Made by a program: the position numbers and the translations under genes. This document shows, piece after piece, positions 57,740-64,000 of a stretch of DNA of 64,000 nt. Position 1 is the stretch's first letter, and each line of letters starts with the position of its first letter. Where the stretch lies: NCBI RefSeq assembly GCF_011683955.1, contig NZ_JAAQPI010000022.1:1-64000 (forward strand), in the 5' to 3' direction. The notes beneath the pieces are model-generated. The model did no database searches. It had not been told where the DNA came from and saw only the letters and a program-made list of their open reading frames with translations. Source of the DNA: Pseudomaricurvus alkylphenolicus (GTDB taxonomy: Bacteria > Pseudomonadota > Gammaproteobacteria > Pseudomonadales > Cellvibrionaceae).

Positions 57740-58516
57740 ATGTGTGAACTGTTGGGCATGTCCGCCAATGTACCCACTGACATCTGTTTCAGCTTCCAGG
57801 GGCTGATCCAGCGGGGTGGGGGTACCGGCCCCCACAAAGACGGCTGGGGCATTGTCTTCTACGAAGGCAAGGGCATTCGCGAGTTTCGCGATCCCGGTGC
57901 CAGTGTCGAATCCCGCATCGCCCAATTGGTGCAGTGCTATCCCATCAAAAGCTGTTACGTCATCAGCCATATTCGCCAGGCCAATGTGGGCTCGGTGTGC
58001 CTGGAAAATACTCACCCTTTTACCCGTGAACTCTGGGGCCAGAACTGGACTCTGGCACACAATGGCCAGCTCAAGGGCAGCGAGGAATTGGCCTTGGGTA
58101 AAGACTTGCCGGTCGGTACCACGGACAGCGAACGGGCTTTTTGTTGGCTACTGGCGGAGCTGCGTTGCCGCTTCAGCGAAGCGCCGGACATACAAACCCT
58201 GTCGGAATTTCTCCACCCGCGCTGTGAACGCCTGCGCGCGATGGGTGTCTGTAATCTGCTGCTCAGCAACGGCCAATGGCTGTTGGCCTACTGCTCCACC
58301 AAACTGCAGTGGATCACCCGCTGCGCACCCTTTGGCGAAGCCAGCCTCACCGACGCCGATGTCAGTGTGGATTTCGCGGGCGAGACCACTCCCAACGACG
58401 TGGTGACGGTGATTGCCACAGAACCCCTGACCTGCAATGAACAATGGACCCCCATGGCACCCGGTGAGCTGATTGCCTTTGTGGACGGAGACCCGGTACA
58501 GCGCCTTACTGTATAA
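57740..58516 (+). CDS. Class II glutamine amidotransferase (YafJ type)
   Basis: A 258-residue stand-alone Ntn-hydrolase amidotransferase. The Cys2 nucleophile is exposed after Met removal ([12 protein letters not shown]). Motifs [33 protein letters not shown] and AHNGQLKG match YafJ/EgtC-like proteins. It probably hydrolyses a gamma-glutamyl amide; substrate unknown. Confidence 0.9.
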
Positions 58517-58517
58517 T
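58512..58517 (+). promoter_or_regulatory. Possible -10 element before hrpA
   Basis: A perfect TATAAT overlaps the end of the amidotransferase gene, 31 nt before the hrpA start. No clear -35 at 16-18 nt, so this is weak. Confidence 0.25.
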
Positions 58518-58547
58518 GCCGTCCTTTTGGGATATTGGGGGAGCCAG

Positions 58548-61500
58548 TTGAGTACCGAAGCTCTGCAACAGCTGCAGCCGCCGTTGGATGAGGTGATGGG
58601 GCGCGACCGCTATCGCCTGCAGCGCCAATGGCATGATATACAGGACCGCAGCCGCGCCGGCAAACCCGTCGATAAAGCCCTGCAAAAACTCAGTCAGGCG
58701 GTGGAGCGCTCTCAGCAGTTGCTGCAGCGTCGTCAGGAGGCTGTGCCGGAGATCAAATTTCCCGAAGAGCTGCCCGTCTCGGGGCGCAGGGACGAAATCG
58801 CCAGCCTCATCGACAAACATCAGGTGGTGATACTGGCCGGCGAAACCGGTTCCGGTAAGACCACTCAGCTGCCCAAAATCTGCCTGTCTCTTGGGCGGGG
58901 TGTCAAAGGCCTGATCGGTCATACCCAACCCCGACGGATCGCTGCACGTACCGTCGCCAGCCGCATCGCTGAAGAGCTGGATACGCCTCTGGGCAGCTCG
59001 GTGGGCTACCAGGTCCGCTTTACCGATCACAGCCAGGATACCAGCCATATCAAATTGATGACCGACGGTATTCTGCTGGCGGAAATCCAGCATGATCGTT
59101 ACCTCAGCAAGTACGACACACTGATTATCGATGAGGCCCACGAACGCAGCCTCAATATCGACTTTCTGCTTGGCTATCTCAAACGCATACTGCCCAAGCG
59201 ACCCGATCTGAAGCTGATCATTACCTCGGCGACCATCGATCTGCAGCGTTTCTCGGAACACTTCGATAAAGCACCGATTATTGAAGTGTCCGGTCGCACC
59301 TATCCGGTGGAGACCCGCTATCGCCCCATGGCGGACCAGGACGATGATCTCTATGGTGCTATTTGCGACACCGTAGAGGAAATCCTGCAGGAAGAGCGCA
59401 ACAGCACGCGCCGCGGTGGCGATATTCTGGTGTTTCTCAGTGGTGAGCGGGAAATCCGCGAGGCGGCTCTGGCGCTGCGCAAGGCGGACATTCCCCATCT
59501 GGAAGTGCTGCCGCTGTACGCACGTTTAAGTCTGGCCGAGCAGAACCGGGTGTTTAACGCCCATAAGGGGCGGCGTGTGGTTCTCGCCACTAATGTGGCG
59601 GAAACCAGTATCACCGTGCCGGGTATACGCTATGTGATCGATCCGGGTTTTGCCCGCATCAGCCGCTACAGTTTCCGTTCGAAGGTACAAAGGTTGCCCA
59701 TTGAAGCCATCTCCCAGGCCAGCGCCAACCAGCGCCAGGGGCGCTGCGGTCGGGTCAGTGAAGGTGTCTGCTACCGGCTTTACGACGAGCAGGATTTTCT
59801 CAACCGCCCCGAATTTACCGATGCCGAAATCTTGCGTACCAATCTGGCGGCGGTAATCCTGCAGATGCTTAACCTGCGCATTGGCGATGTGCGCCACTTT
59901 CCGTTTGTCGATAAACCTGATCAACGTTTGCTCAATGACGGTTTTAAACTCCTGCAGGAACTGCAGGCCGTCGATGGCAAAGGCAAGGTCAAACCCCTGG
60001 GGCGCCAGTTGATGACGCTGCCGGTGGACCCACGCCTGGGCCGAATGGTACTCGCCGGGGCCAAGACCGGTGCGCTGCGGGAAATCCTGATTATCGCCAG
60101 CGCACTGTCGATCCAGGATCCGCGCGAACGTCCGGCCGAAAAGAAACAGGCGGCGGATGAAAAACACCGCCGTTTTAATGACGACCATTCCGACTTTCTC
60201 GCCTTTATCAATCTCTGGGACTACGCCGAACAGCAGCGGCAGGATCTGTCACAGAACCAATTCCGCAAACTCTGTAAGCGGGAGTTCCTGTCCTGGTTGC
60301 GTTTGCGGGAATGGAGAGAAATTCATCACCAACTGTTGTTGGCCCTAAAGCCCCTGCACCTGAAGGCCAATCGCGAAGCCGCCGGCTACGAAGCCGTTCA
60401 CCGGGGGTTGATCAGTGGCCTGCTCGGCTACGTAGGCAACAAGGCGGAGGAAAAAGAATATTTGGGTGCGCGCAATCGCCGCTTCCATATTTTTCCGGGT
60501 TCGTCCCAGGCCAAAAAGGCGCCCAAGTGGATTGTAGCGGGGCAGCTGCTGGAGACCTCGCGCCTGTTTGCCCATCAAGTCGCCAAGGTGGATCCGGGTT
60601 GGGTGCTGGAGGCGGCTGAGCATCTGGTTAAGCGCACACAGTTTGAGCCCCATTACGATGTTCGTTCCGGGCAGGTAATGGCGTTCGAAAAAATATCTCT
60701 ATATGGACTGGTGCTGGTTGAAAAACGCCGGGTCAGCTACGGAGGTATTGATCCCGTTACCTCGCGCGAAGTGTTTATCCGTGCGGCACTGGTGGAAGGG
60801 CGTTATCGGGGCAAAGGCAAATTCTTCAAACATAACCAGAACCTGGTGGAAGAACTGCAGGAGCTGGAAGCCAAATCCCGTCGGCGCGATATTCTGGTGG
60901 ACGACGAAGTGCTCTACCGCTTCTATGATGAGCGGGTACCAGCAGATATCGTCAACCTGGCTGGCTTTGAACGCTGGCGCAAGGACATGGAAAAGGCAAC
61001 CCCGCGCGGCGAGCCCGGCCAGCTGTATATGGAGCGGGACTACCTGATGCGCCACGACGCCGCAGCAGTGACTGAGGCGCAGTTCCCCGGCGAGCTCAAT
61101 TGGCAGGGGCTGACTTTTGCGCTCAAGTATCACTTTGAGCCCGGCCATAAAGAAGATGGTGTCAGTATTCAGGTGCCGGTTGCAGCATTGCACCTGGTGC
61201 CTGAGCATCGCCTTGAGTGGATTATTCCCGGAATTCTGCGGGAGAAGTGTATCGCCATGGTAAAAGGCTTATCCAAACAGTGGCGCAAACATTTTGTGCC
61301 GGTGCCTGCCTTTGTGGACAAGGCACTGGCGGGCATGAAAGCGGACGACGTTCCTCTGGCGGAGGCGCTCTCACACCAGCTCAAGCGCCAGACCACATTG
61401 GACATTCCTATTGAGGAGTGGGCGGGTTGTCGATTGGACAACTACTACCTGTTCAATATTCAGGTGGTGGATGAAAACGGCAAGGTACTGGCACAGGGTC

Positions 61501-62459
61501 GCGACCTGGCCAGCCTGAGAGAGCGCTACCGCGACCGCCTGCAAAAAACACTGCAGAGCAGCGACGATTCCATCGAACGGGACAATATCGCCTCCTGGGA
61601 TTTCGACAAGCTGCCTCAGGACGTCCGCCTGAAACGCGCGGGTATGAGTATCACTGCCTATCCGGCACTGAAGGACAAGGGCGATACGGTAGAACTCAAG
61701 CTGCACGATAACCCGGTGGAGGCCAGTTTTGACAGCCGGTCGGGGATTGTTCGCCTGGCGTTACAACGCTTGCATACCACGGTAAAACCACTGCGTAAGG
61801 AATTGCTGCGAGGCAAAGACATAGGCTTGACCGTGGTCAGCCTGGGCAAGCGTGAACAGGTGGTGGACGATATGCTGATGGCCGCTGTGGCGGACGTCTG
61901 TTTTCCGAATACTGAAGCCGGTGGCGAGGGAGCTTTACCTCGTGACCGGGATGAATTCGAAAAGCAAGTGGATGCCGGGCGTGTTCGGGTAACCGCTCGC
62001 GCCAGAGAGCTGGAAACCCTGTTGCTCAATTTGCTCAACCAAGTGGTGGCTATCAAAAAAACCATCAAGTCCAGCAAAAACGCGCTGGCAATGGCATTGG
62101 CGGCCGGGGATATCAACCAACAACTGCAACAGCTGATTTATCCCGGCTTTATGCTGACGACGCCCAGTGACTGGTTACAACAGTACCCGCGTTATCTGAA
62201 GGCCATTCAACTGCGGCTGGACAAGGTGGCGCTGCAGACCCAAAAGGACAAAATCTGGACGGCGGAAGTCGAAGCCCTTTGGAATCGCTGGCAGCAGCGA
62301 GTGGATAAGGAAGGGCTGGCGACGGTATTAAATAATACTGCCTTGCTGCAATACCGGTGGATGCTGGAAGAGTATCGGGTTTCGCTGTTTGCCCAGTCTC
62401 TCAAAACCCTGATGCCGGTGTCGGCCAAACGGCTGAACAAACTTTGGGAAGAGGCCTGA
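58548..62459 (+). CDS. hrpA: ATP-dependent RNA helicase HrpA
   Basis: A 1303-residue DEAH-box helicase, the length of E. coli HrpA (1300). Walker A AGETGSGKTTQLPK near 97, DEAH in LIIDEAHERSL near 194, SAT motif TSATID and motif VI QRQGRCGRV, followed by winged-helix, ratchet and OB-like regions and the HrpA-specific C-terminal DUF3418 domain. TTG 58548 is preferred: GGGGGAG lies just upstream, while the longer frame from 58473 overlaps the amidotransferase. HrpA acts on stalled, collided ribosomes. Confidence 0.95.
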   Translation: MSTEALQQLQPPLDEVMGRDRYRLQRQWHDIQDRSRAGKPVDKALQKLSQAVERSQQLLQRRQEAVPEIKFPEELPVSGRRDEIASLIDKHQVVILAGETGSGKTTQLPKICLSLGRGVKGLIGHTQPRRIAARTVASRIAEELDTPLGSSVGYQVRFTDHSQDTSHIKLMTDGILLAEIQHDRYLSKYDTLIIDEAHERSLNIDFLLGYLKRILPKRPDLKLIITSATIDLQRFSEHFDKAPIIEVSGRTYPVETRYRPMADQDDDLYGAICDTVEEILQEERNSTRRGGDILVFLSGEREIREAALALRKADIPHLEVLPLYARLSLAEQNRVFNAHKGRRVVLATNVAETSITVPGIRYVIDPGFARISRYSFRSKVQRLPIEAISQASANQRQGRCGRVSEGVCYRLYDEQDFLNRPEFTDAEILRTNLAAVILQMLNLRIGDVRHFPFVDKPDQRLLNDGFKLLQELQAVDGKGKVKPLGRQLMTLPVDPRLGRMVLAGAKTGALREILIIASALSIQDPRERPAEKKQAADEKHRRFNDDHSDFLAFINLWDYAEQQRQDLSQNQFRKLCKREFLSWLRLREWREIHHQLLLALKPLHLKANREAAGYEAVHRGLISGLLGYVGNKAEEKEYLGARNRRFHIFPGSSQAKKAPKWIVAGQLLETSRLFAHQVAKVDPGWVLEAAEHLVKRTQFEPHYDVRSGQVMAFEKISLYGLVLVEKRRVSYGGIDPVTSREVFIRAALVEGRYRGKGKFFKHNQNLVEELQELEAKSRRRDILVDDEVLYRFYDERVPADIVNLAGFERWRKDMEKATPRGEPGQLYMERDYLMRHDAAAVTEAQFPGELNWQGLTFALKYHFEPGHKEDGVSIQVPVAALHLVPEHRLEWIIPGILREKCIAMVKGLSKQWRKHFVPVPAFVDKALAGMKADDVPLAEALSHQLKRQTTLDIPIEEWAGCRLDNYYLFNIQVVDENGKVLAQGRDLASLRERYRDRLQKTLQSSDDSIERDNIASWDFDKLPQDVRLKRAGMSITAYPALKDKGDTVELKLHDNPVEASFDSRSGIVRLALQRLHTTVKPLRKELLRGKDIGLTVVSLGKREQVVDDMLMAAVADVCFPNTEAGGEGALPRDRDEFEKQVDAGRVRVTARARELETLLLNLLNQVVAIKKTIKSSKNALAMALAAGDINQQLQQLIYPGFMLTTPSDWLQQYPRYLKAIQLRLDKVALQTQKDKIWTAEVEALWNRWQQRVDKEGLATVLNNTALLQYRWMLEEYRVSLFAQSLKTLMPVSAKRLNKLWEEA

Positions 62460-63412
62460 TGTCAACCTTTGCCTGGCGCAATGCCCGACTGCAACAAACC
62501 TCCTACACCGTTCAGTGTGGCGAGTATCAGCTGGGTTTGCGTCGCTGCCATGCCAATACCGGTGCCACTCCGGAAGCTCCCCCGATCCTGATGGTGGCCG
62601 GTTTTAATCACGGCTCCGAGGTGTTTTGGCCGCAGCAGGCCGAAGCAGGTCTGGCACCTTACCTCGCGGATCAGGGCTTCGACGTGTTTGTGGCTGAACT
62701 GCGCGGCAAGGGGGCCAGCTGGCCGGAAGTCTCCCGTCACAGTAAGTGGGGACTGCACGAACTCATCACCCAGGACATTCCCGCCCATTTACGCAAAATC
62801 GCGAAGTTGCGTCCCGGCGCACCACAGTTTTGGATCGGTCACGGACTGGGCAGTCTATTGCTCAGTGCCTGCTACAGTCGCCTGGACCTATTGCCGGCGC
62901 CGGTGCTGGGATTCGCGCATTTCGCGCCTCAGCGCCGCTGCGAATTCAGTTCTATGCTTAAAACCCTTCGCTATATGCAATGGCAAGGGGGCCTGGGCCT
63001 CTGCAGTTTGCTGTATGGCCGAAGCGGTCTGCCTGGCAAGCCGGTCGAAAGCCGGGACGTCAGCCATCAGTGGCAGCAGTGGTTAACTCAGCCCCAGTGG
63101 CTCGACTCAACCGACAATACGGATTACGTCAGGTTGTTGCGGGCACGAGGTTTACCGCCGAGCCTCTATTTTGCCGTGCAGGGCAATGCGCTGTGGGGTG
63201 GCGTCGATGATGCTCGCCTGTGGATGAAAGAGTTGGGGCGCCACGACGCACGATTGATCGGGCTCGGCAAGGCGGTGGGCAATCTGCGCAACTATAACGC
63301 CACCAGCATGCTCACACATGTAGACGCCTGCGAGGATCATTTTGTACAGTTACACCATTGGCTGACGGAACAAAAGCAGGCGTTTGAGGGTCATTACAGT
63401 CGCCGGGCATAA
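62459..63412 (+). CDS. Alpha/beta-hydrolase-fold protein lacking the nucleophile serine
   Basis: A 317-residue protein with alpha/beta-hydrolase architecture: ILMVAGFNHGSEVFW (oxyanion strand), LADQGFDVFVAELRGKG and nucleophile-elbow region FWIGHGLGSLLLSACYSRL near residue 127. The elbow reads Gly-His-Gly-Leu-Gly where Gly-x-Ser-x-Gly is expected, so the usual Ser is Gly. The C-terminal His region is HVDACEDHFVQLHHWL. It starts within the hrpA stop (TGATG), so it is coupled to hrpA. Catalytic status is doubtful. Confidence 0.78.
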   Translation: MSTFAWRNARLQQTSYTVQCGEYQLGLRRCHANTGATPEAPPILMVAGFNHGSEVFWPQQAEAGLAPYLADQGFDVFVAELRGKGASWPEVSRHSKWGLHELITQDIPAHLRKIAKLRPGAPQFWIGHGLGSLLLSACYSRLDLLPAPVLGFAHFAPQRRCEFSSMLKTLRYMQWQGGLGLCSLLYGRSGLPGKPVESRDVSHQWQQWLTQPQWLDSTDNTDYVRLLRARGLPPSLYFAVQGNALWGGVDDARLWMKELGRHDARLIGLGKAVGNLRNYNATSMLTHVDACEDHFVQLHHWLTEQKQAFEGHYSRRA

Positions 63413-63458: not shown

Positions 63459-63487
63459 GGAAACTTCCTGTTTGCCGTTCGGTCATA
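63459..63487 (+). promoter_or_regulatory. ECF-sigma-like promoter upstream of the hvfA-like gene
   Basis: GGAAACTT at 63459-63466, a 16-nt spacer and TCATA at 63483-63487 resemble the GGAACTT/TCTGA pattern of sigmaE-type ECF factors. It lies about 150 nt before the precursor gene in the 222-nt gap. A sigma70-like TACAAT at 63582-63587 without a good -35 is an alternative. Confidence 0.4.
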
Positions 63488-63634
63488 GTAGGCATCATCA
63501 CGGTAACTGCAGTTTGACGTTCAGCGGGCAGTGCACCCAGTGATTGGTCTGCTTAGTCCGGTGTCGTACCGACAGACTTTGTACAATCCGGATCATAACA
63601 ACGAAAACGACTGTTCAACCAAAGGAACACGATT

Positions 63635-64000
63635 ATGGCGAAGAAAACAATGACTCCTCTGGCAGCTGCTGTTGGTGCTGCTTTTGTAGCGGGTGCAATG
63701 ATGACTCCGGTCGCATCTGCAGCGGAAAATCCGTTTGCGGCGACTGAGCTGAGCGCCGGTTACAATCTTGCCGGAAAAGACGCTGAAGGCAAATGCGGTG
63801 AAGGCAAGTGTGGCGAAGGCAAATGCGGTGGCGATAAAGCCGGTAAAGAAGGCAAGTGCGGTGAAGGCAAGTGCGGCGGCGACAAAGCCGGTAAAGAAGG
63901 CAAGTGCGGTGAAGGAAAATGCGGCGAAGGAAAATGCGGGGGCAACAAAGCACAGGGCGAAGGCAAATGCGGCGAAGGCAAGTGCGGCGGCAGCAAGGCC
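63635..64000 (+). CDS. HvfA/bufferin-family RiPP metallophore precursor (partial)
   Basis: The frame is open for 122 codons and runs off the window, so no stop is seen. Residues 1-29 are a signal peptide (MAKKTM start, hydrophobic core, cleavage about PVASA|AENPF). The family-like segment AENPFAATELSAGYNLA follows. From residue 51 there are ten EGKCG motifs in groups of 3, 2, 3 and 2, separated by GDKAGK, GDKAGK and GNKAQG. In HvfA-type precursors a DUF692 enzyme with a DUF2063 partner converts these Cys into oxazolone-thioamide groups that bind copper. AAAGGAA precedes the ATG. Maturation genes are expected just beyond the window. Confidence 0.85.
   Translation, partial: MAKKTMTPLAAAVGAAFVAGAMMTPVASAAENPFAATELSAGYNLAGKDAEGKCGEGKCGEGKCGGDKAGKEGKCGEGKCGGDKAGKEGKCGEGKCGEGKCGGNKAQGEGKCGEGKCGGSKA
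63785..64000 (+). repeat. In-frame tandem repeats coding EGKCG modules
   Basis: Fifteen-base units of GAAGGCAAATGCGGT type, with synonymous changes (AAA/AAG, TGC/TGT, GGC/GGT/GGA), repeat ten times, grouped by short GGCGACAAAGCC-like spacers. The pattern continues to the window edge. Confidence 0.85.

Follow-up and report, generated by a model that had tools for sequence, protein, structure and literature searches.

An intact EGKCG-type (HvfA/Buf_EGKCG) precursor operon in Pseudomaricurvus alkylphenolicus and its putative ECF-type promoter

Described EGKCG-type systems

Several systems that modify peptides carrying EGKCG motifs have been described. In nontypeable Haemophilus influenzae, the hvfABCX operon produces oxazolin from a precursor with a signal peptide and AEGKCGEGKCG motifs; six Cys are modified, and the operon includes the DoxX-like gene hvfX (PMC13419390). 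The mmrABC cluster of Microbulbifer, which yields bulbicupramide, encodes a precursor made of a leader and EGKCG cassettes, together with a multi-iron oxidase (MNIO) and a DUF2063 protein (PMC12538549). Between 5 and 8 Cys were reported for MmrA, and the Microbulbifer enzymes modified all six Cys of MmrA with loss of 24 H. The modified product binds Cu(I) and does not bind Fe, Ni, Zn or Mn appreciably (PMC12538549). Fontiphorin and gonophorin are captophorins from other lineages, which belong to the same EGKCG motif class and come with an MNIO and a PME1 partner; fontiphorin has seven modified sites and binds up to four Cu (PMC12668002). The published range of the Buf_EGKCG/oxazolin family is 31–506 amino acids, with up to 58 Cys (PMC12452194).

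The chemistry of these peptides has been revised recently. Oxazolin was first reported as an oxazolone-thioamide and was reassigned to a 5-thiooxazole in two preprints (PMC12668002; PMC13419390). Four H are lost per Cys, and the 5-thiooxazole was assigned in both of these reports and tentatively in the Microbulbifer study (PMC12538549). The name of the NCBI model still follows the older assignment. The same is true of the preliminary description of the present DNA, in which Cys was said to become an oxazolone-thioamide; that statement is out of date.

In Microbulbifer, proteomics did not detect the proteins of the cluster, whether or not copper had been added, the protection conferred on Escherichia coli was slight, and the authors were hesitant about a copper-protective role (PMC12538549).

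The precursor gene, its operon and its relatives

The window analysed here is a stretch of 64,000 nucleotides, bases 1–64000 of an 88397-base contig in the 8.88-Mb assembly of P. alkylphenolicus. An open reading frame listing placed an ATG near the right end of the window with no stop up to its last base (Table 1). When the same contig was read on, the stop codon was found 42 bases past the window end. The full precursor has 135 amino acids with 12 EGKCG motifs and 12 Cys, each Cys lying within a motif. The gene is intact, with no early stop or frameshift in any of its 135 codons, and the decay that the preliminary description had allowed for is absent. A signal peptide and at least ten motifs had been described from the window. 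By eye, the N-terminus (MAKKTMTPLAAAVGAAFVAGAMMTPVASA-AENPF) does resemble a Sec-type signal peptide, with a basic start, a hydrophobic core and a cleavage site after ASA; ten motifs fall within the window. The complete array is arranged in blocks of 3-2-3-2-2, its periods being 16 and 21 residues.

Table 1. Features of the precursor locus, in window numbering; features beyond position 64000 were located on the same contig.
Feature	Position	Strand	Basis or remark
DEAH-type helicase ORF with DUF3418, HrpA-like	58473–62459		upstream, in window
Alpha/beta hydrolase	62459–63412		upstream, in window
Putative ECF-sigma-type promoter, GAAACTT-N15-GTCATA	63460–63487	+	175 bases before start codon; conservation
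AAAGGAA, ribosome-binding-site-like	63621–63627	+	by eye
RiPP precursor gene (HvfA/Buf_EGKCG/captophorin type)	63635–64000, cut by window end	+	open reading frame, NF050137
Putative Sec-type signal peptide	63635–63721	+	translation judged by eye; presumed cleavage between ASA and AENPF
Leader-like stretch AENPFAATELSAGYNLAGKDA, conserved, 5' of first motif	63722–63784	+	same-family comparison
Ten EGKCG motifs, blocks of 3, 2, 3, 2, linkers of GG(D/N/S)KA kind	63785–63988	+	
Last two EGKCG motifs, past window end	64007–64036	+	
Hairpin with T-rich tail in precursor-MNIO interval, past window	64086–64131 (= L003:4087–4132)		fold
hvfB/MNIO (DUF692), past window	64161–65033		directly downstream of precursor
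hvfC/DUF2063, past window	65049–65801		after hvfB
Porin_O_P porin gene, then mlaA (MlaA lipoprotein)	downstream of hvfC		Pfam

The three gene products were compared with family models. The precursor scored 96.8 bits against NF050137, the NCBI HvfA-family domain model (cut-off 19.5), which bears out the HvfA/bufferin type first assigned to it. Against NF050188, the H. influenzae HvfA equivalog, it scored 58.6 bits where 95 is required; it is therefore a family member that cannot be named as the H. influenzae HvfA equivalog, whereas the two enzymes match the HvfB and HvfC family models. The MNIO reached 452.3 bits with NF003818 (HvfB family; cut-off 360) and 351.7 with the Pfam family MbnB_TglH_ChrH (PF05114; cut-off 25), compared with 264.7 bits for the BufB model NF050167, below its cut-off of 310. 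HvfC scored 317.5 bits with NF050145 (cut-off 142) and 82.2 with DUF2063 (PF09836; cut-off 27.2), and NGO1945_C was also above cut-off. Alignment of the MNIO to the HvfB-like crystal structure 3BWW (E 9.9e-84) was used to map residues N175, D242 and H244 of HvfB, alanine variants of which are inactive (PMC13419390). Their counterparts are N184, D226 and H228, which sit within the DVNN and DTH residues of the present enzyme. The gene is confirmed as an intact and fairly long representative of a RiPP metallophore family that is already known and widespread.

Both maturation genes predicted from the window, DUF692 and DUF2063, were present, in that order, immediately to the right of the precursor gene. 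The DoxX gene that had been expected with them was not: by Pfam, none adjoins hvfABC, and the next genes encode Porin_O_P and MlaA. DoxX is frequent across the family in hvfABC-type operons and is not universal. The H. influenzae operon has it, and the available text on mmrABC names no DoxX (PMC12538549). The porin gene between hvfC and mlaA also sets the present locus apart from mmrABC, a comparison made with Microbulbifer loci other than that of the studied strain.

Four DoxX matches were found in the same genome, all on other contigs. One of them belongs to a distinct row of genes on contig C45 (L005:1142–3648) for a DUF2282 precursor, an MNIO, a DUF2063 protein and DoxX, arranged as in Buf1 bufferin operons. 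A second EGKCG gene was not found in the genome, all four NF050137 matches falling in the one precursor gene. At 0.9 kb past mlaA, on the other strand, is a phage-type integrase; together with an NA37-like nucleoid-associated protein and an 823-amino acid protein without a Pfam match, it occupies a possible mobile island (L003:8985–14532). The assembly, at 8.9 Mb, is also large beside the five other listed genomes of the genus (4.0–5.7 Mb), and its listed contamination is 2.1%.

The motif model NF050137 was found in 102 of 144 genomes of the same family (Cellvibrionaceae). From the better-scoring of the matches listed, 68 precursors from 68 genomes, the present one included, were compared, with G095 and G106 left out, so that the set is not random. 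Loci L029, L030 and L034 were excluded since they come from the same genomes as L040–L042. An MNIO gene follows the precursor in 64 of the 68. Of the remaining four stretches, one is cut by a contig end; an MNIO gene lies elsewhere in the genomes of G113 and G009, and none was detected in G052. The leader is also conserved: the pattern [NDS].?F-x4-7-[LMI]xxGY occurs in 60 of 67 same-family precursors, and N-P-F, E-L, G-Y and L-A were invariant in an alignment of eight chosen precursors.

Gene order was compared in 40 same-family stretches of at least 7 kb, of which 39 contain HvfC, 33 MlaA and three Porin_O_P (the present one and two of genus g11). DoxX was found in none of these 40 stretches and in none of 71 loci (tblastn, one divergent query), and in 10 of 121 loci by the same search, each of these 10 being a more distant named locus; the use of a single divergent query weakens its absence from the relatives. 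The order DEAH-type helicase, hvfABC, mlaA is in general common to this locus and the Microbulbifer loci examined, and relatives of the locus include Microbulbifer guangxiensis, Cellvibrio, Exilibacterium and Aestuariicella. The locus is kept across the family and is presumably the same one that was studied in Microbulbifer as mmrABC (bulbicupramide).

Two variants were observed among the relatives. In Pseudomaricurvus alcaniphilus (L080:4507 onward), the precursor adjoining the MNIO gene consists mostly of EGSCG (8 EGSCG and 2 EGKCG), which could reveal what such MNIOs accept before Cys. In the same genome (G113; L040, contig C22), an orphan precursor with 10 EGKCG has no MNIO within 8 kb downstream, and the only MNIO match of that genome is on a different contig. 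The G113 entry among the 68 precursors is this orphan copy and not the syntenic precursor. The P. alcaniphilus record contains a 300-base stretch of G113 unchanged.

A promoter-like signature upstream and a hairpin downstream of the precursor gene

When the upstream regions of ten loci were aligned, a block GAAACT...CGGTCATAGTAGGC was kept in the present locus, L042, L057 and L078, and the rest had diverged. The layout of an AAC-containing -35 element and a GTC-containing -10 element is that of ECF sigma promoters. The signature was sought in 128 upstream regions, drawn from loci of the same family and from named loci; removal of redundancy left 78, which are not phylogenetically independent. 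GAAACT-N16-GTC occurred in 23 of the 78, and no alternative spacing between 10 and 23 was seen in more than two; on the reverse complement there was none at any spacing, and dinucleotide shuffles gave a mean of 0.08 and a maximum of 1. Within the organism's own family, the strict form was present in 7 of 43 non-redundant loci, a figure that counts against the explanation preferred below. A looser form, AAC-N17/18-GTC, was found in 51 of the 78 regions against 15 on the reverse complement (mononucleotide shuffles: mean 6.4, maximum 15), leaving 27 of 78 without the form in the stretch scanned. The AAC–GTC spacing was 17 in 37 regions and 18 in 14, with 1–6 at other spacings; as the reverse complement gave 6 and 9 respectively, the peak at 17 is firm and that at 18 weaker. 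Counted with redundant loci retained, the looser form was present in 17 of 20 loci of the genus Microbulbifer, in many cases as TTGAAC...GTCTGAC; for the genus Cellvibrio, where it reads TGTAACAAA...GTCTA, the count was 7 of 12.

In the P. alkylphenolicus genome, GAAACTT-N15-GTCATA occurs exactly once in 8.9 Mb. Matches with mismatches, the hvfA site included, were at or below control level across the genome (6 versus 5 for the reversed motif, 4 versus 4 and 4 versus 9), and no further regulon members are claimed. A cognate sigma factor was not found among 30 of the 40 sigma-domain matches of the genome, which were scanned. Two motif matches turned up in that scan, about as many as expected by chance on a rough estimate, and were not counted; one of them falls in the gap that separates a sigma gene from its downstream neighbour, which by eye is FecR-like. 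When 121 stretches were searched with six sigma queries, no sigma gene was detected in the vicinity of hvfABC. A scan for consensus sigma-70 promoters and terminators returned no more matches than shuffled sequences did, and did not list the hairpin described below. Transcription of the operon is likely to begin at the putative ECF-type promoter. Such control is not new as such, since a homologous DoxX/DUF cluster is reported to be under the hypochlorite-related ECF factor RpoE2 in H. influenzae, and one in Neisseria meningitidis under SigE (PMC7907618). A prior report of this particular signature was not seen in the open-licence literature searched.

Folding of the 121 bases that follow the precursor's last sense codon gave a free energy of -40.1 kcal/mol (z -5.4), and none of 200 shuffles was as stable. 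The hairpin has a GC-rich core of 10 pairs in its stem and is followed by TTATTTT; Rfam gave no match over L003 3000–8500. The interval between precursor and MNIO genes is at least 45 bases in 41 of 64 same-family loci, 25 of which fold with z below -3 (60 shuffles each). Conservation of the hairpin is suggestive only: a script set the start positions of the MNIO genes, 23 of the intervals leave no room for a structure of this kind, and hairpins often occur between genes. The structure is likely to raise precursor over enzyme mRNA.

Proposed function and competing explanations

The locus is very probably a captophorin (HvfA/Buf_EGKCG) operon that makes a Cu(I)-binding thiooxazole peptide, with a likely ECF promoter and a hairpin that probably sets the mRNA ratio. 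By analogy with the relatives that have been studied, the precursor would be synthesized with a signal peptide and the conserved leader, and HvfC, an RRE-type partner, would help present it to HvfB. The latter would convert the Cys of each EGKCG to a 5-thiooxazole with loss of four H. A product of about 106 residues with up to 12 rings would be exported to the periplasm and there act as a copper sponge, each chain taking up several Cu(I). The calculated monoisotopic mass from AENPF onward is 10052.5 Da, and conversion of all 12 Cys would lower it by 48.4 Da. An ECF-type sigma factor would probably start transcription, and the hairpin would probably leave more precursor than enzyme mRNA. Against this reading stand the scores below the H. 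influenzae HvfA and BufB equivalog cut-offs, the lack of DoxX, the proteome and E. coli results from Microbulbifer (PMC12538549) and, for the regulation, the failure to find a cognate sigma factor in the scan and the control-level counts of mismatched promoter matches. A wider proposal is offered tentatively, with rather more doubt than belief. Gammaproteobacterial EGKCG captophorin operons may share an unrecognized ECF-sigma promoter (GAAACTT-N15-GTCATA and lineage variants) and remain unexpressed unless the sigma factor is released by an envelope-stress signal, bulk copper not being that signal. Their transcript would be tuned by the hairpin, and motif number, through rapid turnover of the array at a fixed locus, would set the copper capacity.

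The most serious alternative, itself unlikely, is that these are redox or thiol-stress peptides induced by an ECF factor under oxidative stress of the envelope. Their thiooxazoles would then serve to remove oxidants or to shield envelope thiols, and copper binding would be of secondary importance. The ECF-type signature in the organism's own family and beyond would fit such a role, as would control of homologous clusters by RpoE2, with its link to hypochlorite, and by SigE (PMC7907618), and the failure to see the Microbulbifer proteins under copper (PMC12538549). Against this stand the preference of the Microbulbifer product for Cu(I) over four other metals (PMC12538549) and the uptake of several Cu by fontiphorin (PMC12668002). 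In Caulobacter, moreover, the targets of the ECF factor SigF are bufferin clusters. Metals too are known to trigger ECF factors, SigF among them (PMC3511200). Binding of Cu(I) is retained as the preferred function.

The large number of motifs invites another explanation, namely neutral drift of the repeats through unequal recombination, with most sites unmodified or unimportant. Counts do vary. After exclusion of L053, which is cut by a contig end, and with L076 tallied from its own start (a stray upstream KCG excluded), the 67 complete same-family precursors, mostly at the same locus, contain 4–18 KCG with a median of 8, and the five sampled genomes of the genus alone span 4 to 12. More than 12 KCG are present in five of the 67, 12 in two (the present one included) and fewer in 60; a frame with at least two KCG was found in 69 of 80 named loci, with a maximum of 12 reached in three. 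Twelve motifs is therefore high and not exceptional, far below the 58-Cys maximum of the family (PMC12452194), and 'unusually long', as the precursor had been called, was an overstatement. Drift is nevertheless improbable as an account of the array, since all 12 motifs read exactly EGKCG despite diverged codons. The units have eight DNA spellings that differ by a mean of 2.1 of 15 nucleotides, always synonymously. This pattern argues for selection acting on the peptide motif of every unit and against fresh DNA slippage.

A chance, low-complexity repeat frame without function has a negligible probability: the array is repetitive, as TRF likewise detects, and long spurious open reading frames occur in its other frames, but 5000 shuffled copies of the precursor protein averaged 0.012 EGKCG each and never had more than one, and the synonymous-only divergence, family models, adjoining maturation genes and conserved synteny all speak against it. 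Chance origin and decay were both ruled out by the intact frame, the family models and the shuffle control.

The gene itself is one more fairly long precursor in a large known family. The promoter signature is the most interesting lead. The Microbulbifer study could not say when this strictly conserved cluster switches on (PMC12538549). The signature may bear on the absence of the Microbulbifer proteins under copper; it offers a concrete, testable reason for that silence, and hints at which stresses to try.
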